NCBI GenBank assembly: GCA_023212695.1
Contig: JALCCG010000001.1
Coordinates: forward strand, 581,688 to 645,687
Direction: 5' to 3'
Source of the DNA: Sporisorium sorghi
Taxonomy: Eukaryota > Basidiomycota > Ustilaginomycetes > Ustilaginales > Ustilaginaceae
Length of the DNA: 64,000 nt
The position numbers and the translations under genes were made by a program. A model generated the notes under the pieces. It did not search any database, was not told the origin of the DNA, and saw only the letters and a list, made by a program, of their open reading frames with translations. Positions 23,963-37,597 of this stretch are shown piece after piece (the first letter of the stretch is position 1; each line of letters opens with the position of its first letter).

Positions 23963-24579
23963 GACACGTCCACTCCCTCTCTAAATAGAAACGCTGTGAG
24001 CACCGACGGTGAGGGCATCGCAAAACTGTTCTTCAACAGCACCTTCATCTCAGCCAAGCCCTGAACCGATGCGTAAAAAAAGACTGCCATTTCGCGTGCA
24101 TCGCCTGAGCGGAATTCTCCAAGATGCTGCCCCTTACGAATAAGTTGGGCCGTAGCATCAAGCAGTCTTGCATTGACCTGGAGAATCTCTTCATGTTGTT
24201 TGGAGGGTGTGCCAGCGCCTGCAAACATGGATTGATTGATCAGAATCAACAGATTGACTAGTTCCTCCCCATTCATGAAATCTGTGTAGATTTCGTCCAC
24301 AAATCGCGCCATTAAGGTTTTGGGGGATAGATCGGATTCGAAATAGGCAATATTACGTTTCAATCCTTCGACGGCATCGTCCACCATTTCGTGAAACAAT
24401 TGATCCTTTGTTCTGTAATGCCGATACAGAAGCCCAATACTGATGCCAGCTGTATCCGCAATATCTTGAACATTGGTTGATCCGAATCCTTGATGAACAA
24501 ATAACTGCATTGCAGCAGAATGTATTTTCTCTCTAGTGGCATTGCGCATTTCTTCAAATTGTTCCTTCGTACGCGGCAA
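23959..24579 (-). CDS. TetR/AcrR-family transcriptional regulator
   Basis: 206 residues starting with TTG at 24579 (AAGGGG 8 nt upstream). The helix-turn-helix is REKIHSAAMQLFVHQGFGSTN plus VQDIADTAGISIGLLYRHYRTKDQLF. The C-terminal helices would bind a ligand. It is encoded ahead of a coupled GNAT gene, behind a promoter carrying an inverted repeat that is a likely autoregulatory operator. Confidence 0.92.
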   Translation of the reverse strand: MPRTKEQFEEMRNATREKIHSAAMQLFVHQGFGSTNVQDIADTAGISIGLLYRHYRTKDQLFHEMVDDAVEGLKRNIAYFESDLSPKTLMARFVDEIYTDFMNGEELVNLLILINQSMFAGAGTPSKQHEEILQVNARLLDATAQLIRKGQHLGEFRSGDAREMAVFFYASVQGLAEMKVLLKNSFAMPSPSVLTAFLFREGVDVS

Positions 24580-24614
24580 TTGAAAAGCCCCTTTTTAAGC
24601 TCTTTTTTTATGAG

Positions 24615-24656
24615 TGAGTTTTTACTCATTATAAAACATAACAACCTGTTTAACAA
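24615..24656 (-). promoter_or_regulatory. Promoter and TetR operator of the TetR-GNAT operon
   Basis: On the minus strand TTGTTA (24656-24651), a 17-nt spacer and TATAAT (24633-24628) form the promoter. TGAGT-AAAA-ACTCA (24628-24615) begins at the last base of the -10 box. TetR binding there would block initiation. The -35 box overlaps the last codons of the MATE gene. Confidence 0.75.
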
Positions 24657-26005
24657 TGCACTGTTAAATTCTGCATCCATTTACCAGATCGATATCGAAT
24701 ATAACCGATTATAAATCGCACGACCTCCTCCAAGGAGAGGAAAAAATAAACCCAGAACAGCGGCTGCTTCCATACATAAGACAGCATGAATCCGAGGGGT
24801 ACCCCGACTAGCCATGTAGCCGTCGACTCCATGGCGAAGACGAATTTACTGTCTCCGCCACTTTGCAGGATCCCCCCTGCGATGATCATATTTGCAACCT
24901 TAACCCACATGAATGCAGCAAAAACCCATATGACATAAACGGACAGCTGTTTCACTTCCACCGAAACTTGGAATATTCTCGTATACATTGGAGCTAGGAG
25001 AACAACCGCAATGCCAAGTCCGAATGAAGTCACCATGCCGACGCGAATGAGTTTTCCAGCGTAATTCATTGCCTGTGTATGATCACCTTCGCCAAGCTTG
25101 TTTCCAACCATTACACCTGCCGCCGCTCCTATACCCGACAATAAACCGATCATCAGCCCTTGAAGCGGAAACGTAATGGTCATGGCCGTCATCTCGGCCA
25201 CACCCATTCGGCTATAAATAACAGCATAAACTGCCTCACCGAGCACCCATACGAACTCTGTCAGCACAAGCGGGTACATGGTGACAAGGAACTTTCTCGC
25301 TAGCGGCCTCGATGTGCGGAAGAGATGTTTGAACTCCACGGCCCCCGGAAGACGGAACCAGTATACGGCTCCAATAATGAGTAAACATTCCGCTAACCTG
25401 GCAATAACGGTTGCATATGCAGCGCCTGCGAGTCCAAGCTGCGGGAAACCGAAATGTCCGAAGATCAGCAAGTAATTAAGAATCATGTTAAGCATGACCG
25501 CGCATAAACTGACATACATCGGAAGCTTTACATGCCCTGTGCTGCGCAGAATTGCAGAGTATAACATCGTCAGCATGATTGGAACATAGCTAAGCGCTCC
25601 GATCTGCAGAAAGATGCCGCCTTCTCCTGTCACAAGCATATCTGTCGTAAACAAGGAGAGCAGCGGCTGCGGATTGAAATAAACGATAATGGCAAACAGT
25701 ATCGACAGAGATAATCCCAGATACAAGCTCAGTCCCAGCAAGTGTGAAATGCTCTTTGTATCCTTCTTCCCCCAATACTGAGCAGTATAGATGGAAAGCG
25801 TGGCAGCAAGTCCAGCCAGAACGACGGAAATAACACTGAAAATCTTGCTGGAGATTCCAACCGACGCGATGGCAATATCACCCAGCTGTCCTACCATGAC
25901 TTGGTCTGTCATGTTTAGCAGAGCCATAATTAAGCTCTGAAGCGCAATCGGAATCGCTAGTTTATATAGCTTCTTGTAGAATGATGTATTGGCATTGTCA
26001 CTCAT
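24650..26005 (-). CDS. MATE-family multidrug/Na+ antiporter
   Basis: About 451 residues and 12 membrane helices with the MATE pattern: LAIPIALQSLIMALLNMTDQVMVGQLGD near the N-terminus and the repeated half ATVIARLAECLLI then YPLVLTEFVWVLGEAVYAVIYSRMG. It would export cationic or other drugs using an ion gradient. The start is the ATG at 26005 with AAGGAGG 7 nt upstream; the frame extends to 26029 but that start lacks a binding site. It lies upstream of the TetR-GNAT operon on the same strand. Confidence 0.93.
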   Translation of the reverse strand: MSDNANTSFYKKLYKLAIPIALQSLIMALLNMTDQVMVGQLGDIAIASVGISSKIFSVISVVLAGLAATLSIYTAQYWGKKDTKSISHLLGLSLYLGLSLSILFAIIVYFNPQPLLSLFTTDMLVTGEGGIFLQIGALSYVPIMLTMLYSAILRSTGHVKLPMYVSLCAVMLNMILNYLLIFGHFGFPQLGLAGAAYATVIARLAECLLIIGAVYWFRLPGAVEFKHLFRTSRPLARKFLVTMYPLVLTEFVWVLGEAVYAVIYSRMGVAEMTAMTITFPLQGLMIGLLSGIGAAAGVMVGNKLGEGDHTQAMNYAGKLIRVGMVTSFGLGIAVVLLAPMYTRIFQVSVEVKQLSVYVIWVFAAFMWVKVANMIIAGGILQSGGDSKFVFAMESTATWLVGVPLGFMLSYVWKQPLFWVYFFLSLEEVVRFIIGYIRYRSGKWMQNLTVHC

Positions 26006-26062
26006 GGATTTACCTCCTTGTACACTCAATTTTTAATATGCAAGCTAAAATCTGAACGCAAA

Positions 26063-26099
26063 AAAAGCACAACCCCGACGAAGCCAAGGTTGTACTTTT
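26063..26099 (-). terminator. Terminator after the carrier-protein operon
   Basis: AAAAGCACAACC pairs with GGTTGTACTTTT around CCGACGAAGCCAA, with T-runs on the minus strand. It lies 120 nt after the last gene of the ACP/ATP-grasp operon and before the MATE gene, and may act in both directions. Confidence 0.7.
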
Positions 26100-26220
26100 C
26101 AGTAGCATTGCCTGTATATTGCTATGAGTATAGCACCAGGATTTGGATATTACAAGATGGAGAAACTACGCTTATCCGTACAAGAAACAAGTAGCAATCC
26201 ATATCATTAATTAGGATCAG

Positions 26221-27270
26221 CTAGGCGGAGCCTTCGAGCAGTGCAATCAATTTTTGCAGGAGAACCGACTCTTCCTTTCGGAACTGGTCGAACCGGATCC
26301 TGAGCCGTTCAAACACGTCCTTGTCTGCTCGAATTTCATGACGAATGTACTGATCCCTCAGTTTCATCGCTCTCTTGGTGATATCCCTGTAGCCATCCGC
26401 AAGCTCTTCATCGTACGGGATGATCCCTTCAGCCACCAAATAGTCGATCCGCTCGCTCATCATTTTTTTGTGCTCCCAGAGCACATGTAGATGCCTCACG
26501 TCACTACGGTCACCAAGCCGGGAATCGTTGCTCTCTACGGAATCAAAGTACATTTGCAAATAGTCGTAGACCTTTAATCCGAAAGCCTGCTCTTCGTCCG
26601 GATTATAATTGATTCGGTTTAAATGAGTTTCACCGTTTAAGTAATCGCGCAGTTGGTCAATCGCAGCCGTTCGATCAAAAGGATACGGAGAATGCGGTTC
26701 GTATTTGTAGAAATACGTGTGATGATCCGCCGTAACCCCCTCCTTCAGCAGATGCCTCATGGAATGGACAGCATCCTGGAACTCTGTGAACGGGATCTGC
26801 AGATTGCGGTACACTCCCGTATGGTCGAACATGGAAGCATCGAAGATTGCTTGGTCCAAGTCGAAACCATATAGAAACAGATGGTGGGGAAACGGCTCTT
26901 TCTGATAGGCCGCCGCCGGGGATAGCCTCGATTCGTCCAGAAACACAACGCAATAATAGCCGCTGCGAATCTGATCCGCAAAGAATTGCGGCCAGGCGTC
27001 CAAGGGCAAAAACTCTAAAATCGTATAGTTGACGGAGCACGTGAGCAGAAACGGATTGTTGAAATTCAGTTCATTCGGTTTGCCGCGAAAAAAATCGAAA
27101 TAGAACTGCCTGCCATCCTCCAGGAATGTTTTTTTGCAGGACAACTGAATAAAATTGCTGTAATACCAAGGAATCGTTTCTTCGTGGATGCTGGTGATCG
27201 AAAGTGTATAAGCCCACCTTAAAAATCCTTTAAGCGGCGGATTCGATATCGGAAGCTGAACAGCCCTCAT
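26221..27270 (-). CDS. Unrecognised protein, possibly BtrH/C39-like acyl-transfer fold
   Basis: About 349 residues from the ATG at 27270 (GGGGGAG 6 nt upstream). I do not firmly recognise it. The middle (VVFLDESR, then PHHLFLYGFDLDQAIFDASM, then NLQIPFTEFQDAV) has the His...Asp strand pattern of papain-like C39/BtrH N-terminal folds, which in butirosin synthesis move an acyl group from a carrier protein to the product. The N-terminal Cys motif of BtrH is not obvious (only a QLSC near residue 45). The C-terminal third is charged and helical. It is last in the operon with an ACP and an ATP-grasp enzyme, which supports but does not prove an acyl-transfer role. Confidence 0.5.
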   Translation of the reverse strand: MRAVQLPISNPPLKGFLRWAYTLSITSIHEETIPWYYSNFIQLSCKKTFLEDGRQFYFDFFRGKPNELNFNNPFLLTCSVNYTILEFLPLDAWPQFFADQIRSGYYCVVFLDESRLSPAAAYQKEPFPHHLFLYGFDLDQAIFDASMFDHTGVYRNLQIPFTEFQDAVHSMRHLLKEGVTADHHTYFYKYEPHSPYPFDRTAAIDQLRDYLNGETHLNRINYNPDEEQAFGLKVYDYLQMYFDSVESNDSRLGDRSDVRHLHVLWEHKKMMSERIDYLVAEGIIPYDEELADGYRDITKRAMKLRDQYIRHEIRADKDVFERLRIRFDQFRKEESVLLQKLIALLEGSA

Positions 27271-27333
27271 GGATTCTCCCCCTTCTGGTTTCTGAGTTAT
27301 CACCCAGCTGCCATACATGACCGACAGATCTTC

Positions 27334-28137
27334 TTAGCTGCTTGCACTGCTGTATCCCTTCACAGCCTGCTTCCAAATCAGTCGAATGACTGTGAAGAGC
27401 AGAAGCGAACCGGCAAGTGCCAGTCCCGCGTAGAGCCAGCTGAGCTGTCCCAGCAGGAACAGCGGTCCGAAATTGGTAATGAGGAACAGTGGAATGACAA
27501 ATGTTCCGATTCGGCGGACCCAAGCCGGGTAAATCGCCATGGGAAAATTGTTGGCGTCCCAGGCGGAATGGGCGATCTCCGACGCAGAGCCCGTCTGAAC
27601 GAACCAGAATGACAGCAGCGCAGGGATAATCATCAGACAGTATGTGATGACAACGGAGACAAGCAGCAGCAGCATAAACCCGGCAAGCTGCAGCAGCGTC
27701 AGCGGAATATCCATGGCATGCCAGCCGATGCCAATCATGACGAACCCAACCAGAATATCAGGGATCGGCAGCGCCAGATCGACATAACGCAAGGAAGCCA
27801 TAAATTGAAGAGAAACCGGCTTTGTAAGCATTAAGTCGAGCGAGCCGTCCTTGATATACTCCGGAATTTTTGTGAAATTCGTGAATAAGAGTCCCACATA
27901 AATGCCGGTCACTACGGTGTGCATGCCTATAAATAGAAGCAGACCTTCAGGCGGTATGCCGTCTACGTGAAGATCGGTGCGGAACACAACGAGCACATAC
28001 AACAGCTTGGCGAGCAGGTAGACGGATTCCACAAGCAGACTCATCATAAAATTGCCCCGAAACTCCATCTGGGCGATGAGACAATTTTTGATGAACATGC
28101 CATACAGATGTGCGTATTTTCTTATGGTTTTAAACAT
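27334..28137 (-). CDS. ABC-2 type transporter permease (DUF990-like)
   Basis: 267 residues with about six membrane helices. FTKIPEYIKDGSLDLMLTKPVSLQF is the hallmark segment of ABC2_membrane_6/DUF990 permeases. It forms a pair with the preceding permease and the NatA-type ATPase, making an exporter. It lies 12 nt behind the sister permease and 63 nt before the last gene of the operon. It probably exports the product of the biosynthetic genes. Confidence 0.88.
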   Translation of the reverse strand: MFKTIRKYAHLYGMFIKNCLIAQMEFRGNFMMSLLVESVYLLAKLLYVLVVFRTDLHVDGIPPEGLLLFIGMHTVVTGIYVGLLFTNFTKIPEYIKDGSLDLMLTKPVSLQFMASLRYVDLALPIPDILVGFVMIGIGWHAMDIPLTLLQLAGFMLLLLVSVVITYCLMIIPALLSFWFVQTGSASEIAHSAWDANNFPMAIYPAWVRRIGTFVIPLFLITNFGPLFLLGQLSWLYAGLALAGSLLLFTVIRLIWKQAVKGYSSASS

Positions 28138-28149
28138 ATGGAATGCCCG

Positions 28150-28959
28150 CTACCCCCCAACCGCCGAATATTTCTTCATGGAAACCCGCCACGTCAGTCG
28201 GGATAGCAAGAAGAACAGGAGTATCCATCCACACTGGATGAGCAGCCCCTGGTACATCGCCCCTACCTCTGTTTTGCCGCTGAGGACATTGACCGGAAAA
28301 TAAATGGTGTACGGAAACGGCGTGTACTGAAGTGCCTGCACCACCGAATCTCCGAAAATCTCAAGCGGAAACATGCCTCCGCTCAAAATATTGACAAGCA
28401 GACTCGTAATAACAAAAAAATAAGAGATTTCATTCAGATAAAAAGCACTCGCACAGATGCAGTAAGCGATCAGGAAATTAAGCAAAAGCGCGCCCCACAG
28501 CGTGACGGCAAACAAGACCAGCCGTACGGCCTCGAGCTCGATTATGTCCCCGGCCGCTGCGATCCAGATGATCCCGACAAGCATGACAGCGGTAATTCCG
28601 TAATAAATCGCCTTCTGCCCGAAAAAGGACACCAGTCGATACCCGAAGTAGCTGACCGGTTTGATCAAATACTTGTTGAGTCCGCCGTTCTTGATATCGT
28701 CGACAATCTGGTGCTCGAACTGGGTCGCGATCAGCTTGGACACCAATCCCGCCAAAATCGTATACAATATGATTTGATGGTATGAATACGAGAACAGCGC
28801 CGTTTCGCCGGAGTGTCGGTAAACTGCCGTCCAGATAAAATACTGGACAAGAATCGGAAACGCCGCTCCGAGAAGTCCGAGAAAGAAGTGGAATCGGTAT
28901 TCCATCGAATGCTGAATTCCCATCGAGAAAACAGCCGTATACAATCTCCGTCTATTCAT
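28150..28959 (-). CDS. ABC-2 type transporter permease
   Basis: 269 residues, about six membrane helices, with EHQIVDDIKNGGLNKYLIKPVSYF, matching the same family as the following gene. Its ATG overlaps the ATPase stop by 4 nt. The two permeases would assemble as a heterodimer. Confidence 0.88.
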   Translation of the reverse strand: MNRRRLYTAVFSMGIQHSMEYRFHFFLGLLGAAFPILVQYFIWTAVYRHSGETALFSYSYHQIILYTILAGLVSKLIATQFEHQIVDDIKNGGLNKYLIKPVSYFGYRLVSFFGQKAIYYGITAVMLVGIIWIAAAGDIIELEAVRLVLFAVTLWGALLLNFLIAYCICASAFYLNEISYFFVITSLLVNILSGGMFPLEIFGDSVVQALQYTPFPYTIYFPVNVLSGKTEVGAMYQGLLIQCGWILLFFLLSRLTWRVSMKKYSAVGG

Positions 28960-29939
28960 CCTGCATATTCCTTACGGTACAGCCTTGATATACTCTCTTC
29001 GATCGGCACGTCCTCAATCGTCCAATCCAAAATATCAAACGAATCAAGGACGGCGCGCGATACTTCCTTCATGCGGTATTTCGGCAGCTCCAGCACAGCG
29101 TTATAATCGTCCATACTCACAATCTTCCCGAACGAAGCCAGCCGCTGTTCCGCGACCGGCTCGGAGAACTGCAGCCTGATGATTTTGTGCTCGCCAAATA
29201 AATGGTTAATCTTATGAAGATCGCCGTCATACAGCAGGCTTCCTTCGTTAATGATGATCGTCCGCTTGCACAGGTCCTCCACATCCTTCATGTAGTGGCT
29301 GGTCAGCAGAATCGTCGCGCCGAACTGCTCATTATAATATTTCAAAAACTCCCGGACCTTCTTCTGGGAGGGGAAATCCAGGCCGATCGTCGGCTCGTCC
29401 AGATACAGCAGCTTCGGGCGATGGATCAGAGCGGCAATCAGCTCCATTTTCATCCGTTCGCCCAGAGACAGCCGGCGCACCTGCACATTCAGAAGCTCCT
29501 GCACACCTAACATCTCCGATAGTTCGGCAAGACTTCGGCGGTAAAGATCATCCTCCACGTCATAAATACATTTGTTCAAATAAATCGATTCGCTGGCGGG
29601 AAGGTCCCACCAGAGCTGGTTCTTCTGGCCCATCACAATGGAGAACAGCCGTTTGAACTCGTTCCTACGCTCCCAAGGCACATAGCCGAGCACGTTGGCC
29701 TCCCCGCTTGTGGGGTACAGAATACCCGACAGCATTTTGAGTGTCGTGGTTTTCCCCGCCCCGTTAGGACCCAGAAATCCAACGCACTCGCCTGGGCCGA
29801 TATCGAAGGAAACGGATTTAACCGCTTCCTTCACAAGTGACTTACGGGCAAACAAATTTTTCAGTGAATGCCTAAGTCCAGCCTCTTTCCGGTAATACAC
29901 AAATGATTTGTGCAGCTCCCGCACACGGATAAAGTCCAT
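28956..29939 (-). CDS. ABC-2 transporter ATP-binding protein
   Basis: About 327 residues from the ATG at 29939 (AGGAGG 7 nt upstream). Walker A is GPNGAGKTT, the Q-loop VMGQKNQLWWDLP, the signature RLSLGERMKMELIAALIHRP, Walker B LLYLDEPTIGLD, and the switch His in LLTSHYMKD. A C-terminal regulatory region follows. It powers the two permeases. Such NatA/DrrA-like sets export peptides, antibiotics or glycolipids; here the biosynthetic neighbours suggest a product exporter. Confidence 0.95.
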   Translation of the reverse strand: MDFIRVRELHKSFVYYRKEAGLRHSLKNLFARKSLVKEAVKSVSFDIGPGECVGFLGPNGAGKTTTLKMLSGILYPTSGEANVLGYVPWERRNEFKRLFSIVMGQKNQLWWDLPASESIYLNKCIYDVEDDLYRRSLAELSEMLGVQELLNVQVRRLSLGERMKMELIAALIHRPKLLYLDEPTIGLDFPSQKKVREFLKYYNEQFGATILLTSHYMKDVEDLCKRTIIINEGSLLYDGDLHKINHLFGEHKIIRLQFSEPVAEQRLASFGKIVSMDDYNAVLELPKYRMKEVSRAVLDSFDILDWTIEDVPIEESISRLYRKEYAG

Positions 29940-29999
29940 CCCCGCTCCTCCTGAACGATAACATATAGTCCCATTTTGGGCGGTATCCAATCTGAAAGC

Positions 30000-31175
30000 T
30001 TAAACTCCATTGTTATACAAAAGCACACATTTGGAGCATATCGGCATCAAACCGCAGGCCAGCACCTCGCGCTGTTTCCGTAGATCCTCGCCGTGAAAAA
30101 TATCCGCCACGCTGTCTTCGTACAGATTGCCGACACTGAATTCCGGGAAAAATTTGCACGGATTCACTTTGCCGTCCGGCATGACATCCATCCGATTCGA
30201 GATAGAGAAACACTTGGTCCGCTTCATGGCCGGCTTCTCGCTGCCTCGGATGAATCCTTCTACTTCTTCGGGCTCCAGTGCAGGCTGATAGCGAATGCGC
30301 ACATTCCATACACGGGAATTGACGCGTTCAAGCTCTTCGATTAGTGTGTCATAATTATCGGGCGAGATATGGAATGTGAAGGAGTGCCAGCTATTCTTGT
30401 GATTGTCCGCAAAGCGGGAGGCAAGGTGCGGGAAATGGGCATCAAAGTAGGTGTCCATCTTTTCCGCCGTACCGGGAGGAATGTACCATGGGAAGCAGAA
30501 GTAAACGGAATCGACGCCCATCTCTTCGAAGAATTCCATAAAGCTGTAAAGCTGACCAACCATCTGGTCATTCACCGTCAGGGCTACGGAAACTTTGCCT
30601 TTGTACAAGCCCTGCTTCTGCAGATCAAGCAGCAGCTGTACGGCGTGGATCACTTTCTTGAAGGTGCCTTTGCCCCGAATCGCGTCATTCTCCTTCTCGA
30701 AACCTTCCAGGCTGACCAGCATAACCAGATTTTCCGACATTTTCAGAATGGAATCCAGCTTCTGTTCGATGAGAATCGCGTTTGTGCAAATGGTTGTGTA
30801 CCGGTCTTCCTTGGCCAGCAATTCCGCCAATTCATCGAACTTGGAATAGAACAGCGGTTCTCCACCCCACAGGAACACACGCGATTTGCGCTCTCTCGTT
30901 TCGGCCAGAAGCTTCTCCACGACGGGAATGTCGATCTCGTCTTTCTTCTCTTCCTTGGCAAACCCGTGATGGAACCCGTCCGGATTCCATTCGAAGCAGT
31001 GCTTGCAGCGCAGGTTGCAGCCGTTATTAAGCTTGATCCCGATCTCATAAGGCACGGGGGCGGCATAAGTCGGATCTTCCCGAAGCTTCCTCCCCGTTTC
31101 CGCCAGCGGAACGAGGGTCCTTTTCATATTTTGGAATGTCAGCTGGTCAAACGTAACTGCTGTTTTCGGCTGCAT
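30000..31175 (-). CDS. Radical SAM enzyme with C-terminal SPASM domain
   Basis: 391 residues from the ATG at 31175 (GGGAGG 7 nt upstream), overlapping the glycosyltransferase gene by 29 nt. The radical SAM cluster motif is CNLRCKHC (Cys53, 57, 60), followed by FLWGGEPLFY (SAM-binding GGE). Residues 315-388 hold a SPASM-like set of cysteines (322, 340, 374, 380, 383), with MPDGKVNPCKFFPEFSVGNL. It would bind [4Fe-4S] clusters and modify a peptide or amino-acid-derived substrate, perhaps one carried on the ACP. The reaction cannot be inferred; BtrN and peptide-modifying SPASM enzymes are distant analogues. Confidence 0.9.
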   Translation of the reverse strand: MQPKTAVTFDQLTFQNMKRTLVPLAETGRKLREDPTYAAPVPYEIGIKLNNGCNLRCKHCFEWNPDGFHHGFAKEEKKDEIDIPVVEKLLAETRERKSRVFLWGGEPLFYSKFDELAELLAKEDRYTTICTNAILIEQKLDSILKMSENLVMLVSLEGFEKENDAIRGKGTFKKVIHAVQLLLDLQKQGLYKGKVSVALTVNDQMVGQLYSFMEFFEEMGVDSVYFCFPWYIPPGTAEKMDTYFDAHFPHLASRFADNHKNSWHSFTFHISPDNYDTLIEELERVNSRVWNVRIRYQPALEPEEVEGFIRGSEKPAMKRTKCFSISNRMDVMPDGKVNPCKFFPEFSVGNLYEDSVADIFHGEDLRKQREVLACGLMPICSKCVLLYNNGV

Positions 31176-32253
31176 AAGTTTTCCTCCCGAAATGATTGAT
31201 TTTTGATCGCTCCTCCAGCAAACGCGTGTGTATTCTCTCCAGATGTTGTTTCGAGAAATCCTGGGCTGCCCATTCCGCGAACCGGATGCCGAAGCCGCAG
31301 GATTCCCAATAACTTGAATTGTGCAGCTCATGCTCGCCGAACGGCTCCAGCATGACAAAAGGGATTCCATATGACAGCGAGTCGTTCAGGGTGGCTCCTC
31401 CCGGCTTGCTGATTATGGCAGCGCAGTTCTGCATCAGATCCGTGTAAGCGGCGTAATCCCTGAGCGGGATATCCTGTAGAACGCCGCCCTCACGGACATA
31501 ACGGACCATCGGCGGAAACGTATGCCGCCCCTGTTCATCCCGGCTCCACGGGTCCCAGGCTGCGCCCGTTCCGAAGTACCGTGTAACCCCGTCGTCCTCC
31601 TCCACTTCGGAAGGATCATAGACAATCACATCCAGCGGGTAACCGAGCTCGCGAAGCTTAGGGATCGTTCCGGCATACGTCCCGATCCCCCAGCCGCCGC
31701 CATGGATCAGAATGCGTCCGGCACGCTGCGCATAAGGCAGAGGCTCCGTCTCGTCTGAAGCAATATAGCCGCCCGGTGACCATTTCGAAGGCTCATAGAA
31801 CCAGACGTTATGGTAGCCGGGGTACAAGGACTTGTGTACCTTGAACGATGGCGTATCCCACGCATCCAACCGGATCAGTCGAATATCCAGAGGCTCGCGG
31901 GCAATGATCTTGTAGCGCTCCAGGATCGGCAGCCAGAAGCCGGTAAACACGGCAAAGCGGGATACCCCATCACGGTTCCATGCATCCAGCAGACGCTGGA
32001 CCTCCTCCTCGTTCAGGGAAGATTCAACGGGTTTGGCCAGCTTATGGCCCATCAGGGCAACGGAGAAATCGGCATGGAATGCTTTTTTTGTGGAAGGGAT
32101 CTTGCGCCTGATTTCTTCGTGATACAAATTCTCCAGAACGTGAACCGCTGCTCTGACACCTCTGTCTTGGAGGTACGTGTACAGGTGCATAGCCGGAATG
32201 TACGCGCCCAGCGAATTGCCCGACGCCAGCATGGTGATCGAAGATGAATTCAT
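31147..32253 (-). CDS. GT-B-fold glycosyltransferase (MurG/UGT-like)
   Basis: 368 residues. The N-terminal half begins ITMLASGNSLGAYIPAMHLYTYL, like the acceptor domain of GT-B enzymes. The C-terminal half has ILIHGGGWGIGTYAG and ISKPGGATLNDSLSYGIPFVML, with a closing EHELHNSSYWESCGFG, matching the donor-binding PGG..(T/S) motif of MurG and UDP-glycosyltransferases. GAGGTGG precedes the ATG. It probably transfers a sugar to the operon's product. Donor and acceptor unknown. Confidence 0.8.
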   Translation of the reverse strand: MNSSSITMLASGNSLGAYIPAMHLYTYLQDRGVRAAVHVLENLYHEEIRRKIPSTKKAFHADFSVALMGHKLAKPVESSLNEEEVQRLLDAWNRDGVSRFAVFTGFWLPILERYKIIAREPLDIRLIRLDAWDTPSFKVHKSLYPGYHNVWFYEPSKWSPGGYIASDETEPLPYAQRAGRILIHGGGWGIGTYAGTIPKLRELGYPLDVIVYDPSEVEEDDGVTRYFGTGAAWDPWSRDEQGRHTFPPMVRYVREGGVLQDIPLRDYAAYTDLMQNCAAIISKPGGATLNDSLSYGIPFVMLEPFGEHELHNSSYWESCGFGIRFAEWAAQDFSKQHLERIHTRLLEERSKINHFGRKTYAAENSSYV

Positions 32254-32275
32254 GCCCTGCCACCTCGTTCCCGAT

Positions 32276-33751
32276 TTAGTTGTACACTTTAACCGACAAG
32301 TCAGCGAACACCTGTCTCAGCCTGTTAATCAGTTCACTGCGGTGCTCGTTGTCACGACCTACCACCGATACATACAGCCGTCCCTTCGGCATGCCCCGTT
32401 TGCTCTGCAATCCCTCGGCGATACGGCGGGAGGTCAGAATATCGTTCACCATTACGGTGTTAGATGAAAGAGGCACAATCCCGTACCCTTCCTGGACAGT
32501 TAAGAGAAGACCGGACACGCGCAGCGCGTCCAGCAGCCTCCCGAACGCGAAGCCTTCGGGTAAACCGAGGGACAGGAATGTAAGCCAACTGGTATGGCCA
32601 TGCGTTTCCCAGACTTTATTGAGATAAGCGTTAATGAGGCCCATGGACATGCGGGCGTTAATCTCTACAATCGGCACCACATCCCCGTTCTCCAGAATCA
32701 TGGAGTCGAAGCAGACGAAACCGTGGTAGCCGTCCCCAGCCAATATGCCGAGTGCTTTTTCCATCGTGTCGAAATAACCGGCGTGCTCCAGAAGACGGAT
32801 CAAAGCTTCATCCGCTTTAATAGACCCGCCGTAGTTCTGCCGCTGATTCATCATCTGCTGAACGGAGATGAAATCCTTCTCACCGTTTTCCCGGATGAAC
32901 CAGTGGGAACTGAAGTCGGTCCCCCTCCTCAGCAGCGGCTCCAGCAGAAATTGTGAGCGGAGGCCGCTCCGCTCCTGTTTATCCAGATGTCCCGCTATCC
33001 TTCGCTGCATGGCTTCGCCGTCGATGAGCAGGTTACCCTTGCCCGACACACCGAAGGGATCCTTCAGCAAATACGGCCCCTGCTTCAGAAGCGTATTTCC
33101 GGCCGACTCCATTTCCGCTGCGCTGTTCGCCTCCATGCCGTAACACTTCTCGCCGATTCTAGCCAGCAGGCGGTTGGAGTAGATTTTGGAGTTCACACGG
33201 ACAACCGTCTCAAGGTCAGGCAAAGGACTAAAGGGCCCGGCGGCTTGAAGGTAAACTTCCGTATCAGCCGTAATGGCATACGGAGTGAGAGGTTTGACGG
33301 TGTGAGTCCATACCGCTTCACGGTGCAGACCACCGGCAGCATGCTTGAGAGATATCATTTCCGCCAACCCCGTTGCCTCCGGATAGCCGGAACCTACTGC
33401 CTGCAGCATGCGGTCTGCCGTTATCTGACTTTGGGTTTGATCCGCCGCAAGACGGAACATGCACCGCTTGAAAACGTCCGCTTCTGGCAGGGGCTTCTTC
33501 TCATCGCTTAAATCAAAGTGATAACGACTTCGAAAGGAAAATCCTAACCCGGCCAGGTATTCATACAGTTCTGGATCGATTTGACACCGGCTGTAGAGGA
33601 TATCGTCCGGTCCGCAAAATGGAAATAGCAGCTCGTCCATACAGAGAACTATGGATTCCCGTTCTCTATCCGGCATAGCGGGCAGCCTGGTTAGATTCGG
33701 ATCCCTCCACCTCGTTTCGGGATCGAATGTACCCATTACGATGGTTGGCAT
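32276..33751 (-). CDS. ATP-grasp ligase (carrier-protein or peptide ligase type)
   Basis: 491 residues from the ATG at 33751 (GAGG 8 nt upstream), beginning just past the ACP stop. Residues 1-190 look like a pre-ATP-grasp region; 195-370 hold the ATP-grasp fold with the nucleotide loop YLLKDPFGVSGKGNLLI (227-243) and the metal-binding VEINAR (362-367). A C-terminal region of about 110 residues follows. The size and layout resemble PGM1-related peptide ligases and BtrJ-type enzymes that load amino acids on a carrier protein. With an adjacent ACP, loading or extending an aminoacyl chain on Ser37 of that ACP is the best inference. Confidence 0.78.
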   Translation of the reverse strand: MPTIVMGTFDPETRWRDPNLTRLPAMPDRERESIVLCMDELLFPFCGPDDILYSRCQIDPELYEYLAGLGFSFRSRYHFDLSDEKKPLPEADVFKRCMFRLAADQTQSQITADRMLQAVGSGYPEATGLAEMISLKHAAGGLHREAVWTHTVKPLTPYAITADTEVYLQAAGPFSPLPDLETVVRVNSKIYSNRLLARIGEKCYGMEANSAAEMESAGNTLLKQGPYLLKDPFGVSGKGNLLIDGEAMQRRIAGHLDKQERSGLRSQFLLEPLLRRGTDFSSHWFIRENGEKDFISVQQMMNQRQNYGGSIKADEALIRLLEHAGYFDTMEKALGILAGDGYHGFVCFDSMILENGDVVPIVEINARMSMGLINAYLNKVWETHGHTSWLTFLSLGLPEGFAFGRLLDALRVSGLLLTVQEGYGIVPLSSNTVMVNDILTSRRIAEGLQSKRGMPKGRLYVSVVGRDNEHRSELINRLRQVFADLSVKVYN

Positions 33752-33761
33752 CAAGCCGGCC

Positions 33762-34037
33762 TCACTTCTGGACATCTTCGTATAAAGATAACTCCTGAGG
33801 CTGGCAGCTTTTCAGGAAAGTCATAAAGGTGTCGATCGACTGGAGATGCTCGTAATCGAATTGGTCATAGTCAATGACAACGTTCAACTGTTCCTCGATT
33901 TTAAGCATAAACTGGATCATTTGGAGTGAATCGAGGCCAATATCGTTGTTCAGTTCCGTGGTAGGGGACAGAATTTGGCGAAGTTCCGGTTGGTCTTCCT
34001 TAATAGCGCACAAAATGTCTACGATTTTATCGTACAT
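33762..34037 (-). CDS. Acyl carrier protein
   Basis: 91 residues with the phosphopantetheine site in NDIGLDSLQMIQFMLKIEE (Ser37 in the DSL motif), flanked by four predicted helices. It is a free-standing carrier domain, not the fatty-acid ACP judging by its context and unusual sequence (YDQFDYEHLQSIDTF). AAGGAG precedes the ATG. It is first in an eight-gene operon and should carry the growing substrate as a thioester for the ATP-grasp enzyme. Confidence 0.93.
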   Translation of the reverse strand: MYDKIVDILCAIKEDQPELRQILSPTTELNNDIGLDSLQMIQFMLKIEEQLNVVIDYDQFDYEHLQSIDTFMTFLKSCQPQELSLYEDVQK

Positions 34038-34049
34038 GACTACACTCCT

Positions 34050-34103
34050 TTAAAGTGATAATGTGTGAGGGTACAACCGATCCTTACGTTTAGAGAATGC
34101 CAT
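34050..34103 (-). other. Leader ORF, 17 codons, upstream of the ACP gene
   Basis: A short frame (MAFSKRKDRLYPHTLSL) lies in the 5' leader of the ACP operon; its TAA runs into the AAAGGAG of the ACP gene. Its own ribosome binding site is weak (CAGG). It may be a translated leader, a tiny peptide, or chance. Confidence 0.25.
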
Positions 34104-34152
34104 TCAAATCTAACCTGACTTAGACGCCCCTCCCTTTTCCATAGTTACAATT

Positions 34153-34181
34153 ATTATGCTCAACATGCCAATTTATGTCAA
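34153..34181 (-). promoter_or_regulatory. Near-consensus promoter of the ACP/ATP-grasp operon
   Basis: On the minus strand a perfect TTGACA (34181-34176), a 17-nt spacer and CATAAT (34158-34153) form a strong sigma-A-type promoter, about 110 nt before the ACP start. The leader begins with GGAAAAGGGAGGGG, a purine-rich stretch. No obvious operator was seen. Confidence 0.8.
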
Positions 34182-34354
34182 TGATAAATACCGTTGCGTT
34201 GATGACTTTCAACAATTACTGCCGGAGTAATACAGACACGGCGGTCCTCATGCACCAGCTAATATATATGCGTTGTTCCAATAGGCAATTCATATGAATG
34301 CACGCAAAATCTACATGTCACCTTCCCGTCTACCATACGGAAGCCGCCAATATT

Positions 34355-34547
34355 CTATATTTTCTTTCTCAACATGTGGAGATGATCCTGCAAATCATCC
34401 TCCATGATCTGTATACCGGGCTCCTGCGAAGGCTTCATTTTATCGTCAAACCTTCGCATAAGCACTTCAGCAGCTGGAAGCACAGCGACTCCCTTTGACT
34501 GTGTCTTTTTTGTCCGCCATCGCATCGACAATTAACCTAAATTGCAT
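34355..34547 (-). pseudogene. Small frameshifted gene, possibly YCII-related
   Basis: A start at 34547 has an excellent ribosome binding site (GAGGAGGG 6 nt upstream) but the frame stops after 26 codons (34467). The coding signal continues in another frame (LPAAEVLMRRFDDKMKPSQ) to a TAG at 34355. One extra G in the run AAAGGGAG (about 34490) would explain the break. A 63-residue product is implied. Its N-terminus (MQFRLIVDAMADK) is reminiscent of YCII-related proteins, but this is weak. It lies directly behind the DUF998 gene and may be a decayed gene, a sequencing error, or real frameshifting. Confidence 0.5.
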
Positions 34548-34575
34548 TTGGATTCCCTCCTCGTATTTATGCTTC

Positions 34576-35232
34576 TTATACCTGGAGTGTTTCAGCACGC
34601 AATTTCGCGGCAAGCAGCGAAACCCAACCGAAAGCAACCATTCCGGCGCTGCCCATAATAACGCCAATCCAAGCACTGTTCATCGAACCTACTATGATGA
34701 GCACAGGCGCAATAATGCAAGATGCAATGCAATAGAAGCTCCAACCACGCTCGCCTTGTGAAGCAAACCGACTTGCAAAGACCATATTGGCCACGATCAG
34801 GCAAATAAAGGCGGTAAAAAAAGCTGCCGAGTGAAGGGCTGCATGGCCGCTCATCGATGTCGGCGCTTCTGCGGGCGCACCCGGAGGAAAGCTGAGCCCA
34901 GGGTCTGGTCGAAACAGGCCGGCCATCATCATGCCAATCCCATAGATTCCAATAAGCAGAGCCCCCCATGTACCTCCCTGGAATCCACGAAGTAAACGGC
35001 GCACGCCAATCGCCGCACATACAGCAAGCAATCCAGTAATGAAGAAATTAGCGCTCTGGACCCATCCCGCATCCCCCAAAGTAAGAGTACTGATAGCGTG
35101 GAGCCTGATATCAAATCCCGTACGCGTAAACGATTGAATAATAGCTACTACATAGAACAACGGGGTGGATATAACTCCACCCATCAGAAGCATACGAATC
35201 ACCTTATAATTTTGCTTGTTTATCATCATCAT
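34576..35232 (-). CDS. DUF998 integral membrane protein
   Basis: 218 residues with six predicted membrane helices. The segments HAISTLTLGDAGWVQSANFFITGLL and GLFRPDPGLSFPPGAP and LHSAAFFTAF match the DUF998 family of unknown function. ATG-rich start (MMMINKQ) behind GGAGGAAG. It lies ahead of the small frameshifted gene and upstream of the ACP operon, but the strong promoter at 34153 probably separates them. Confidence 0.85.
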   Translation of the reverse strand: MMMINKQNYKVIRMLLMGGVISTPLFYVVAIIQSFTRTGFDIRLHAISTLTLGDAGWVQSANFFITGLLAVCAAIGVRRLLRGFQGGTWGALLIGIYGIGMMMAGLFRPDPGLSFPPGAPAEAPTSMSGHAALHSAAFFTAFICLIVANMVFASRFASQGERGWSFYCIASCIIAPVLIIVGSMNSAWIGVIMGSAGMVAFGWVSLLAAKLRAETLQV

Positions 35233-35392
35233 GATCTTCTTCCTCCTTAATTTTCCTTTTTACCTACGCAGAATGAACTTCTCCGTTATATAGACAACGA
35301 ACAAGAGCAGAGCTAATCGACATTCCTCCATTCTTTTTTTGCGATTTTAATGGAATGGCTCGTTAACGATGTTCTATCGCTGTATAAAAAAA

Positions 35393-35417
35393 CAAGCCCT
35401 GCTAAGAGCAAGGCTTG
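35393..35417 (-). terminator. Terminator of the chemoreceptor gene
   Basis: CAAGCC-C-TGC TAAGA GCA-A-GGCTTG, with seven A upstream on the plus strand (a T-run on the minus transcript), lies about 95 nt after the stop of the chemoreceptor gene. Confidence 0.8.
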
Positions 35418-35512
35418 CTGTAGGATGAGTTTCCTCTAAAATACTACTTCGCAGGCATATCGAGAGATGTAAACCGGGTCAGCCGTACAGCTTCTCTCCA
35501 GCCTGAAGTGAA

Positions 35513-37597
35513 TCACTTATTATTTATGGTGAATTTTTTTACATTATCCTCCAGATCCGTGGACAGTGCCTTGAGCTGAGACAGATAATCTGCCAAGTCA
35601 TCAATCGTAGCCAATTGCTCCTCAGCAGCCGCAGACACGTCTTGAGTAATGGCTGCATTTTCTTCAGTAATCGCTGATATATTGGTAAAGACGTCCGTAA
35701 GTGCATACCGCTTTTCTTCCATCAACTGGATATGGACATCTACCTCGCTTGTTTTATCCACTTGGCTGTCAACGGAGACCATAATGTCGTTAAAGATCGA
35801 TTCCGTTTCCCGTACAGCTGTTTCTTGATCCCTGAAGAGCTCACGGGATGTGCCGATAGCCTGAACTGCCGCACCTACCTGACTGTTTACGTTTGAAATA
35901 ATGTAGCTAATACTGTTCACCGCGGAAGCTGATTGCTCAGCGAGCTTGCGGATCTCGGCAGCTACAACGGAGAATCCACGCCCATGCTCGCCTGCTCTGG
36001 AAGCCTCGATCGAAGCGTTTAGGGCCAGCAGGTTGGTCTGTCTGGATATTTCAAGGATTGTGACAAGTATGCTGCTGATTTCACCTGCACTTTCATTCAC
36101 TTGATTAATGGCCAGTGCTGTTTCTTCTGACGCTTTCAGTGTATTGTTGAATCTTCCTACCAACTCCTGCATAATGACGATCCCTCGTTGATTAAGCTCA
36201 CCCGTATGTCGAGCAATATCCAGTATTTCCTGAGTGGATGTAGTGACCTGATCGATCGCTCCGCCGAGTTCTTCTACTTTTTCAGAGCCATTCATAACAG
36301 TGCTCGCTTCTTCACTGGATGCGGTAGAAAGCTGGATGATGGACTCGGTTATTTGAGAGGAAGCCTTTTGAGTCTGATCCATACCATCTTTAAGGTTGGA
36401 CGCCGATTGTGAGACAATATGCACCGAACCCGATATCCCACCGATTATTCTCTGCAAATCCTGCTTCATGACATCCATGGCCCGAACCATTGTGCCTACC
36501 TCGCTCTTCTTCTTCAACATCGCTTGTGGAATTTCAGCGGCAAGATTACCACTACCAATTTGCTGCAGATAATGTACAGCAGCATGAATCGGCTTGGTAA
36601 TCGCGCCGGATACAATCAACGAGACACCGATGGCAATCAGGACGATAATTCCCATAACAATGAAAATAATTCGCTGGATCGCATCGATGGATTCCTCGAT
36701 TTCACTCTTGTCCATGATCGCGATATATCTCCACTGGGTTTCCGGTGATACAAAGACGCTGGCTGTGTAGTTCTTGTTATCCAAGGTGATATCAAAATTC
36801 TGATCTTTCAACTTGTCGATTTCAGTAAATTCCTTTACACCCAGATCCTTCAGCGTTTTGAAATTCGTTTCCGGGTTCTTAGGATTCGCCAGAACTGTAC
36901 CATTTTGGTCTGCCAGAATGACATAGCCAGTTTCACCGATTTTAATGTCATTGATGGTCTCCGTCAGTGATTCCAAGCTTACATCTACACCTTGAACACC
37001 AACGATGTTGCCTGCCTTGTCCTTGATGGTAACGGATGAACTGACAATTGGAACATTTCCGGTAAACGAAGCATAAGCACCTGTGCGCATGACTTTATCC
37101 GGGTTATCGATAGCCTGGGTGTACCACTCCCTGGGTCTTGGGTCGAATTTATCGTTAGAAGTACCTTCCGGCCATTGAATGTATCCACCATCCTTTGTTC
37201 CCAAATAGATGTAAGCAACATTCGGATGTGTTTTGGAATAATTCAAGAAAAAGTTGTAAATGTCCGATTCCAAACCTGCTTTTTTTGATGGCGTCATCTG
37301 AATGGTCCCGTCTTGGCCTACTTCATTCACATAAGAGGTGATGGATTTATCGATCTGCTTAGTGAGAGGATGATTAGCGAAGTATTCAACCGATTCATTT
37401 ACCGTATTAAAGTATAGGTTCATAGCACCACTAACTTGCTTAATTTCCTTACGAGTGGCTTCATAGAAATTATTTTCCATGTCATTCTTAACTTTTTGGT
37501 CTATCGCGAGGCCTAGTGATAATGTCGATATCAATACCATGACGACCATCGTAACCAATAGTTGAATTTTTAGATTCCATTGCAATTTCTTTCTCAT
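35513..37597 (-). CDS. Methyl-accepting chemotaxis protein with dCache sensor
   Basis: 694 residues: membrane helix at about 11-30, a large extracellular dCache_1 domain (about 35-300, with [23 protein letters not shown] and the second lobe [18 protein letters not shown]), a second helix at about 307-332, HAMP (about 333-385), and a cytoplasmic signalling domain with the conserved tip [30 protein letters not shown]. No C-terminal NWETF pentapeptide. It senses a small ligand, often an amino acid in this class, and signals to CheA. Its start codon is overlapped by a nine-codon leader. Confidence 0.95.

Follow-up and report, generated by a model that had tools for sequence, protein, structure and literature searches.

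A candidate carrier-protein route to glycosylated metabolites in an ACP, ATP-grasp, glycosyltransferase and radical SAM operon of Paenibacillus DNA

An eight-gene operon with a free-standing carrier protein

The 64,000-nucleotide stretch of DNA analyzed here (hereafter the window; positions 581,688 to 645,687 of contig JALCCG010000001.1 in the Sporisorium sorghi assembly GCA_023212695.1) carries an operon of eight co-directional genes on the minus strand, spanning 34037 to 26221. We propose, tentatively and at slightly below even confidence, that the product of this operon is a glycosylated small molecule, built on a free-standing acyl carrier protein (ACP) independently of nonribosomal peptide synthetases (NRPSs) and polyketide synthases (PKSs) and then exported. 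The proposal builds on the gene content, the protein folds, catalytic motifs that are intact except for the cysteine of a BtrH-like protein, and the near-strict co-occurrence of the genes for the ACP, an ATP-grasp ligase, a glycosyltransferase and a radical S-adenosylmethionine (SAM) enzyme. In order of transcription, the operon encodes:

33762..34037, minus strand: free-standing acyl/aminoacyl carrier protein (ACP), 91 amino acids; PF00550, 33.3 bits
32276..33775, minus strand: ATP-grasp ligase, 499 amino acids, predicted loader of an acid onto the ACP
31147..32253, minus strand: GT-B-like glycosyltransferase, 368 amino acids; family profile against the C-terminal half of 9wde, E 5e-8
30000..31175, minus strand: radical SAM enzyme with one four-cysteine (Twitch-type) auxiliary site, 391 amino acids; PF04055, PF13186
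28956..29939, minus strand: ATP-binding cassette (ABC) exporter ATPase, 327 amino acids; PF00005, 85.5 bits; DrrA-like in NCBIfam, below the cut-off
28150..28959, minus strand: ABC-2 permease 1, 269 amino acids; PF06182, 78.6 bits
27334..28137, minus strand: ABC-2 permease 2, 267 amino acids; PF06182, 131.1 bits
26221..27270, minus strand: BtrH/CcbD/AziU3-fold protein without catalytic cysteine, 349 amino acids; fold comparison

The catalytic residues of the core enzymes are invariant in family alignments. Ser37 of the ACP is present in all family sequences (62/62), and the protein bears a weak likeness to DltC models (17-18 bits against NCBIfam cut-offs of 52 and 68). The ligase has both the superfamily fold and the ATP-grasp motif, and fold comparison places it in the peptide-ligase group, while the glycosyltransferase has only a sub-threshold match in Pfam. 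In the radical SAM enzyme, the CxxxCxxC cysteines (C53, C57 and C60) and four auxiliary cysteines (C322, C340, C380 and C383) are invariant (69/69). Its C-terminal part aligns with BtrN (E 3e-9), with the auxiliary cysteines of the two proteins lining up; BtrN is an enzyme of butirosin synthesis, and the cysteines concerned are its cluster ligands. An earlier note on this DNA, made from the sequence alone, had called the protein a radical SAM/SPASM enzyme; the first part of this label holds, and the invariant cysteines together with the BtrN alignment refine the auxiliary site to a four-cysteine, BtrN-like one. The same protein scores 52.5 bits against pVip, a viperin model without a stated cut-off, in an alignment limited to positions 4-147 of 257. 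A defence system was set aside, as PADLOC matches are confined to the radical SAM core and the ABC ATPase.

When the eight proteins were scanned against NCBIfam, nothing exceeded a cut-off among the matches listed (the best 25 for the radical SAM enzyme and the ATPase). The ATP-grasp and BtrH-like proteins lie below every Pfam and NCBIfam cut-off, so that searches relying on such models would miss both. Condensation, adenylation and ketosynthase/acyltransferase domains are absent from the eight proteins in Pfam and NCBIfam, as is a pyridoxal phosphate (PLP) decarboxylase, and Pfam reveals no AMP-binding protein among them. These scans agree with the earlier note, which had described the operon as free of NRPS and PKS genes and as falling outside the standard cluster classes.

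Co-occurrence of the core genes

Using ATP-grasp motifs alone, we fetched the best 80 of 145 related loci (numbered with the prefix L; the contig-end loci L057 and L067 are counted) and searched them by tblastn with all eight window proteins. A glycosyltransferase gene lies within 200 bases of the ATP-grasp gene in 79 of the 80 loci, the exception being a 3.2-kb contig (L057), and all loci but L027 (79 of 80) have an ACP gene no more than 4 kb away. In 67 loci the radical SAM gene is on the same strand and at most 1.8 kb distant. The ABC ATPase was detected in 65 loci (among them L080, where the 22% match is to a different transporter), each ABC-2 permease in 54, and the BtrH-like protein in 53, in some at 20-27% identity; the exporter and BtrH-like genes are common yet optional.

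We further surveyed 295 Paenibacillaceae genomes with E limits of 1e-60 for the ATP-grasp and radical SAM proteins and 1e-40 for the glycosyltransferase, with scoring limited to the 5 or 6 top candidates of each genome; the resulting counts are lower bounds. The ATP-grasp family is present in 86 genomes, the radical SAM family in 92 and the glycosyltransferase family in 94; all three occur in 86 genomes (~29%) and none in 201. Every ATP-grasp match lies at most 8 kb from a glycosyltransferase match (98/98) and from a radical SAM match (98/98). Conversely, 98 of 111 glycosyltransferase matches are near an ATP-grasp match and 102 near a radical SAM match, and 98 of 109 radical SAM matches are near an ATP-grasp match. 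For the four core proteins, pairwise distances computed over 48 rows (the window plus 47 loci) correlate with r 0.94-0.96, a level that 0 of 2000 permutations reached; this figure is uncontrolled for relatedness and has no unlinked control gene beside it. The earlier note had suggested a neighbourhood survey to see whether the genes travel together and had named failure to co-occur as refuting; in the 80 motif-fetched loci and the 295 genomes they do travel together, far beyond chance.

Several observations weigh against the proposed pathway. Of the 13 loci in which the radical SAM gene is missing from its usual place, 10 make up a single clade (P. elgii, P. ehimensis, P. tyrfis and relatives), which suggests that this clade either does without the radical step or has a substitute for it; the other three are two short contigs (L057 and L067) and L060, where the gene lies elsewhere on the other strand. 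In addition, 11 loci in the 295 genomes have glycosyltransferase and radical SAM matches and no ATP-grasp match. Among four of these that were fetched, a diverged ATP-grasp gene is in place in L106 and L110 and none is seen in L109 and L111, indicating that the ATP-grasp ligase is not strictly required. Finally, two genomes have glycosyltransferase matches but neither radical SAM nor ATP-grasp matches.

The variant loci differ in composition. The clade devoid of the radical SAM gene (L027-L035 and L049) keeps the ATP-grasp, glycosyltransferase, BtrH-like, ACP (unseen in L027) and ABC ATPase genes at ~70% identity. It has no ABC-2 permease match, and an MFS transporter is present in 6 of its 10 loci; an arylamine N-acetyltransferase gene is present in all of them, its 10 occurrences among the 80 loci coinciding exactly with this clade. 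Six of the 13 loci that have a glycosyltransferase match and no ATP-grasp match were fetched (L106-L111). The L111 operon has no ATP-grasp gene and retains an ACP, a glycosyltransferase, two radical SAM enzymes, an exporter and a pair of BtrH-like proteins, together with an AMP ligase and a second carrier protein; four further genomes show a similar spacing of glycosyltransferase and radical SAM genes and no ATP-grasp match. In L107 and L108, the same glycosyltransferase family resides inside different clusters with AMP-ligase-like genes. L107 features AMP ligase, carrier protein, BtrH_N, sulfotransferase and nucleotidyltransferase domains and a PLP-decarboxylase-like gene, with another ATP-grasp gene ~6 kb away, and the genes of L108 resemble those of L107 by blastp alone.

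A BtrH-like protein without its cysteine

The last protein of the operon has no Pfam match. Fold comparison alone revealed its relatives, an overall fold shared with CcbD, AziU3 and CtaG; PDB sequence searches with the family profile and with one cysteine-containing cousin gave no relative. AziU3 uses a carrier-bound substrate. CcbD and CtaG also act on carrier-bound substrates, CcbD joining carrier-bound proline to an amino sugar, according to published descriptions; the one review article looked through makes no mention of AziU. The catalytic cysteine of CcbD and CtaG is replaced in the window protein, and the aligned stretch is devoid of cysteine in 50 of 53 family rows, while a histidine (H129 in the window protein) is kept in 52 of 53. 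The BtrH-like identity put forward as possible in the earlier note is therefore upheld for the fold, that of the CcbD/AziU3/CtaG group, and not for the catalytic cysteine; with the fold present and the cysteine gone, the case for a BtrH-type, cysteine-based acyl transfer is weakened.

Taking three families together, BtrH-like genes occur in 57 of the 80 loci, and some relatives have BtrH-family proteins with the cysteine (family c17, 11/11; L059 has PF14399 above the cut-off). BtrH_N loci of P. chitinolyticus, sought as a butirosin comparison, were too short to tell.

Accessory genes in related loci

Fetched stretches extend up to 10 kb on each side, and membership of the operon varies; accessory families were identified from one or two members each and counted by clustering over the 80 loci. 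Methyltransferase families occur in 17, 12 and 6 loci, epimerase/dehydratase and Gfo/Idh proteins in 14 each, and an AMP ligase in 13. A GH3 protein close to beta-N-acetylhexosaminidase (204 bits against a cut-off of 207) is encoded in 12 loci and a glucose-1-phosphate cytidylyltransferase, above its cut-off, in 7. A second ACP is found in 9 loci, a KAS III-like protein in 6 and a PIG-L deacetylase in 5. L054 combines a PLP decarboxylase, a second ATP-grasp protein with PGM1_C and a second ACP. Judged from these gene families, the products would be variable, sugar-bearing and carrier-built. A single P. puerhi genome holds the system twice (L054 and L058), with differing accessory genes.

Operon layout and control elements

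The gene junctions are tight, with 3 overlaps and 4 gaps of 12 to 63 nucleotides. Three features flank the genes:

34153..34181, minus strand: promoter TTGACA-N17-CATAAT, 11/12 consensus matches
26062..26106, minus strand: probable intrinsic terminator, a U-tailed hairpin of -22.6 kcal/mol (z -6.4; 0/200 shuffles as good)
24650-26029, minus strand: MATE family efflux gene, just downstream of the operon and beyond the terminator hairpin

Across 15 aligned upstream regions (the window and 14 close relatives picked from the 80 loci), the TTGACA box is identical in all 15, and the neighbouring ATAAT block is conserved too. Of 111 loci, 16 contain the related pattern TTGACA-N16-18-RATAATAATTGTAAC, placed ~100 bases ahead of the ACP gene; the promoter of the window itself has C in place of the R of RATAATAATTGTAAC. 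Against the significance of the promoter, the number of promoter-like sites across the region is no higher than chance. Nevertheless, its conservation in close relatives and the hairpin placed after the last gene bear out the earlier description of an eight-gene, co-directional operon with a promoter. In close relatives a conserved stretch (34157-34120; window sequence ATAATAATTGTAACTATGGAAAAGG) covers the -10 box and the probable transcription start, and may be an operator. A conserved leader RNA was rejected (consensus fold -1.7 kcal/mol, no compensatory pairs), and an Rfam scan of 24000-36000 found no known RNA.

Source of the DNA and taxonomic spread

The window is Paenibacillus DNA, close to P. 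glucanolyticus by sequence comparison. At 98% identity, its ATP-grasp protein matches one named from P. glucanolyticus, and its BtrH-like protein is 98% identical to one database protein and up to 85% identical to named Paenibacillus proteins. The contig, 645,687 bases long, ends with the window and belongs to an assembly of 23.17 Mb and 469 contigs that was handled as intron-bearing. Three stretches of this contig have a GC content of 42-48%, compared with 56-60% in stretches of nine other contigs; given this difference, it is likely a bacterial contig, a contaminant or associate, within a mixed or eukaryotic assembly. The bacterial origin leaves the operon finding untouched.

The core also occurs in Clostridium, in Thermoflavimicrobium and in bins labelled Nostoc, Chlorobiaceae and Methylococcaceae. 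Wider sampling at E 1e-60 shows the ATP-grasp family to be rare: among 292 genomes from the phylum to which the Nostoc bin belongs, that bin alone has it, and among 291 genomes from the class that includes Clostridium gasigenes, two do, C. gasigenes being one of them. Metagenome bins are the source of all four non-Bacillota loci (L060, L061, L066 and L080), which form their own group in a quick ATP-grasp tree, an arrangement that argues against stray Paenibacillus contigs. Spread by plasmids was set aside, the plasmid collection having yielded no close counterpart.

A proposed pathway and its alternatives

In the pathway that we favor, the ATP-grasp ligase would activate a small carboxylic or amino acid and load it onto the phosphopantetheine of the ACP, after which the GT-B-like glycosyltransferase would place a sugar on the ACP-bound acyl group. 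The Twitch-type radical SAM enzyme might then oxidize, rearrange or C-C couple the bound glycoside, the CcbD/AziU3-fold protein could perform a carrier-dependent release, coupling or cyclization without a cysteine acyl-enzyme, and the ABC-2 transporter would export the product. We infer the substrate, the sugar and the order of the steps; this order is favored because the set of roles parallels that of mitomycin synthesis and because the loading step parallels closthioamide and BtrJ.

The main alternative, which we consider unlikely although it is the strongest competitor, follows the order of butirosin and lincosamide synthesis: the glycosyltransferase and radical SAM enzyme would make a free (amino)glycoside, the ATP-grasp ligase and ACP would prepare an aminoacyl group, and the BtrH/CcbD-like protein would form the amide before export. 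The match of that protein to CcbD, the condensing enzyme described above, speaks for such an order, as do the BtrN-like auxiliary site, the cysteine-bearing BtrH-family proteins of some relatives (c17 and L059) and the gene set of L054. It sits poorly, however, with the loss of the catalytic cysteine in the window and in nearly all family rows, with BtrH-like genes being rarer (57/80 loci) than those for the ACP or glycosyltransferase, and with the fact that no known scaffold-making enzyme is found among the eight genes (Pfam, NCBIfam).

A role in cell-envelope modification, in which a Dlt-like pair of ACP and ligase would decorate a wall or capsule polymer together with the glycosyltransferase and the ABC-2 transporter, appears considerably less probable still. 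The glycosyltransferase is related to a lipid glucosyltransferase, the ACP has its weak DltC likeness, and ABC-2 transporters export polymers too. Yet Dlt employs an AMP ligase, no membrane acyltransferase is found among the eight genes (Pfam), accessory genes vary greatly among Paenibacillus species, and the three enzymes occur in merely 86 of 295 family genomes.

We see very little likelihood of a cofactor or primary-metabolism pathway: the high conservation of the radical SAM enzyme (85-96% identity between the window and L001-L025) would fit one, but 201 of the 295 genomes have none of the three enzyme families at the limits used. A primary-metabolism match, which the earlier note had named as refuting, did not emerge, as no curated model exceeds its cut-off among the matches listed. 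Least probable is a pathway for a ribosomally synthesized and post-translationally modified peptide, in which the radical SAM enzyme, ATP-grasp ligase and glycosyltransferase would act on a missed short precursor: many SPASM/Twitch enzymes mature peptides or proteins, and several such models lead the NCBIfam matches listed for the radical SAM enzyme, all far under their cut-offs, but the invariant ACP serine would be left unexplained, no peptide-recognition domain is among the Pfam matches, and a scan of the leader and gaps within the operon yielded no precursor (no co-directional open reading frame of at least 20 amino acids wholly inside the promoter-ACP interval; intergenic gaps of at most 63 nucleotides), in line with the earlier note, which had seen no clear one.

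Extending the favored carrier-bound pathway, one may speculate, with considerable doubt, that it represents a widespread class of carrier-templated glycosides, in which the sugar is added and then radically remodelled on an ATP-grasp-loaded ACP and a cysteine-free CcbD-fold protein finishes the product non-covalently; its four core genes would then act as a portable unit to which species add methylation, sugar-nucleotide, KAS III or second-carrier genes. The three core enzymes are found in ~29% of the sampled Paenibacillaceae genomes, and the core reaches other phyla, there in metagenome bins only. If the proposal is true, the operon would offer a compact, soluble system for radical SAM and glycosyltransferase action on carrier-bound substrates and a pointer to an unexplored family of glycosylated metabolites. 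Radical SAM action on a carrier-bound substrate is, in the passages available on mitomycin, just proposed for its radical enzyme.

Comparison with known systems

Carrier-templated, NRPS-independent synthesis is already known. For the present gene combination, a search of the open literature (titles, abstract openings and passages; most subscription journals lie outside this scope) aimed at the combination and its named relatives found no description.

At the level of single proteins, the ATP-grasp ligases 3wvq (PGM1), 8ynd and BesA are 16-19% identical to the window ligase; 8ynd carries the title of a peptide ligase, and the NCBIfam model BesA describes an amino-acid ligase, whereas here an ACP gene lies at most 4 kb away in 79 of 80 loci. 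The lincosamide condensing enzyme CcbD/LmbD shares 11% identity with the BtrH-like protein, which does not retain the cysteine of the Cys-His-Glu triad.

The butirosin side-chain system (BtrI, BtrJ, BtrH, BtrK and BtrN) likewise combines an ACP, an ATP-grasp enzyme, a BtrH-fold protein and a radical SAM enzyme with a four-cysteine auxiliary site. BtrJ has a carrier-loading role in butirosin synthesis. It is classed among the ATP-grasp enzymes (PMC4431377). In contrast to butirosin, the window operon has no decarboxylase (BtrK), the catalytic cysteine is gone, and the radical SAM core is barely BtrN-like, the match being carried by the C-terminal part.

The closthioamide system (CtaD, CtaE and CtaG) shares ATP-grasp/carrier loading, the ATP-grasp enzyme being predicted to load an amino acid onto a stand-alone carrier protein in the excerpts available, and CtaG shares the fold of the BtrH-like protein. 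It differs in that CtaG has a cysteine (C11A variants appear in PDB titles) and the window protein none, and those excerpts name neither a glycosyltransferase nor a radical SAM enzyme.

The early mitomycin pathway comes with the same roles: a free-standing ACP, a loading ligase, a glycosyltransferase and a radical SAM enzyme, the likeness being one of role. The differences are that a coenzyme A ligase loads the carrier there and an ATP-grasp ligase here (with an AMP ligase family in 13 of 80 related loci), and that a BtrH-like protein is unnamed in the passages available. As those passages describe it, MitE loads 3-amino-5-hydroxybenzoic acid (AHBA) onto the ACP MmcB, MitB glycosylates the ACP-bound AHBA with N-acetylglucosamine in vitro, and the radical SAM enzyme MitD is proposed to form a C-C bond (PMC8621148). 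The pathway also includes a deacetylase, MitC, and PIG-L deacetylase genes lie near 5 of the 80 loci here.

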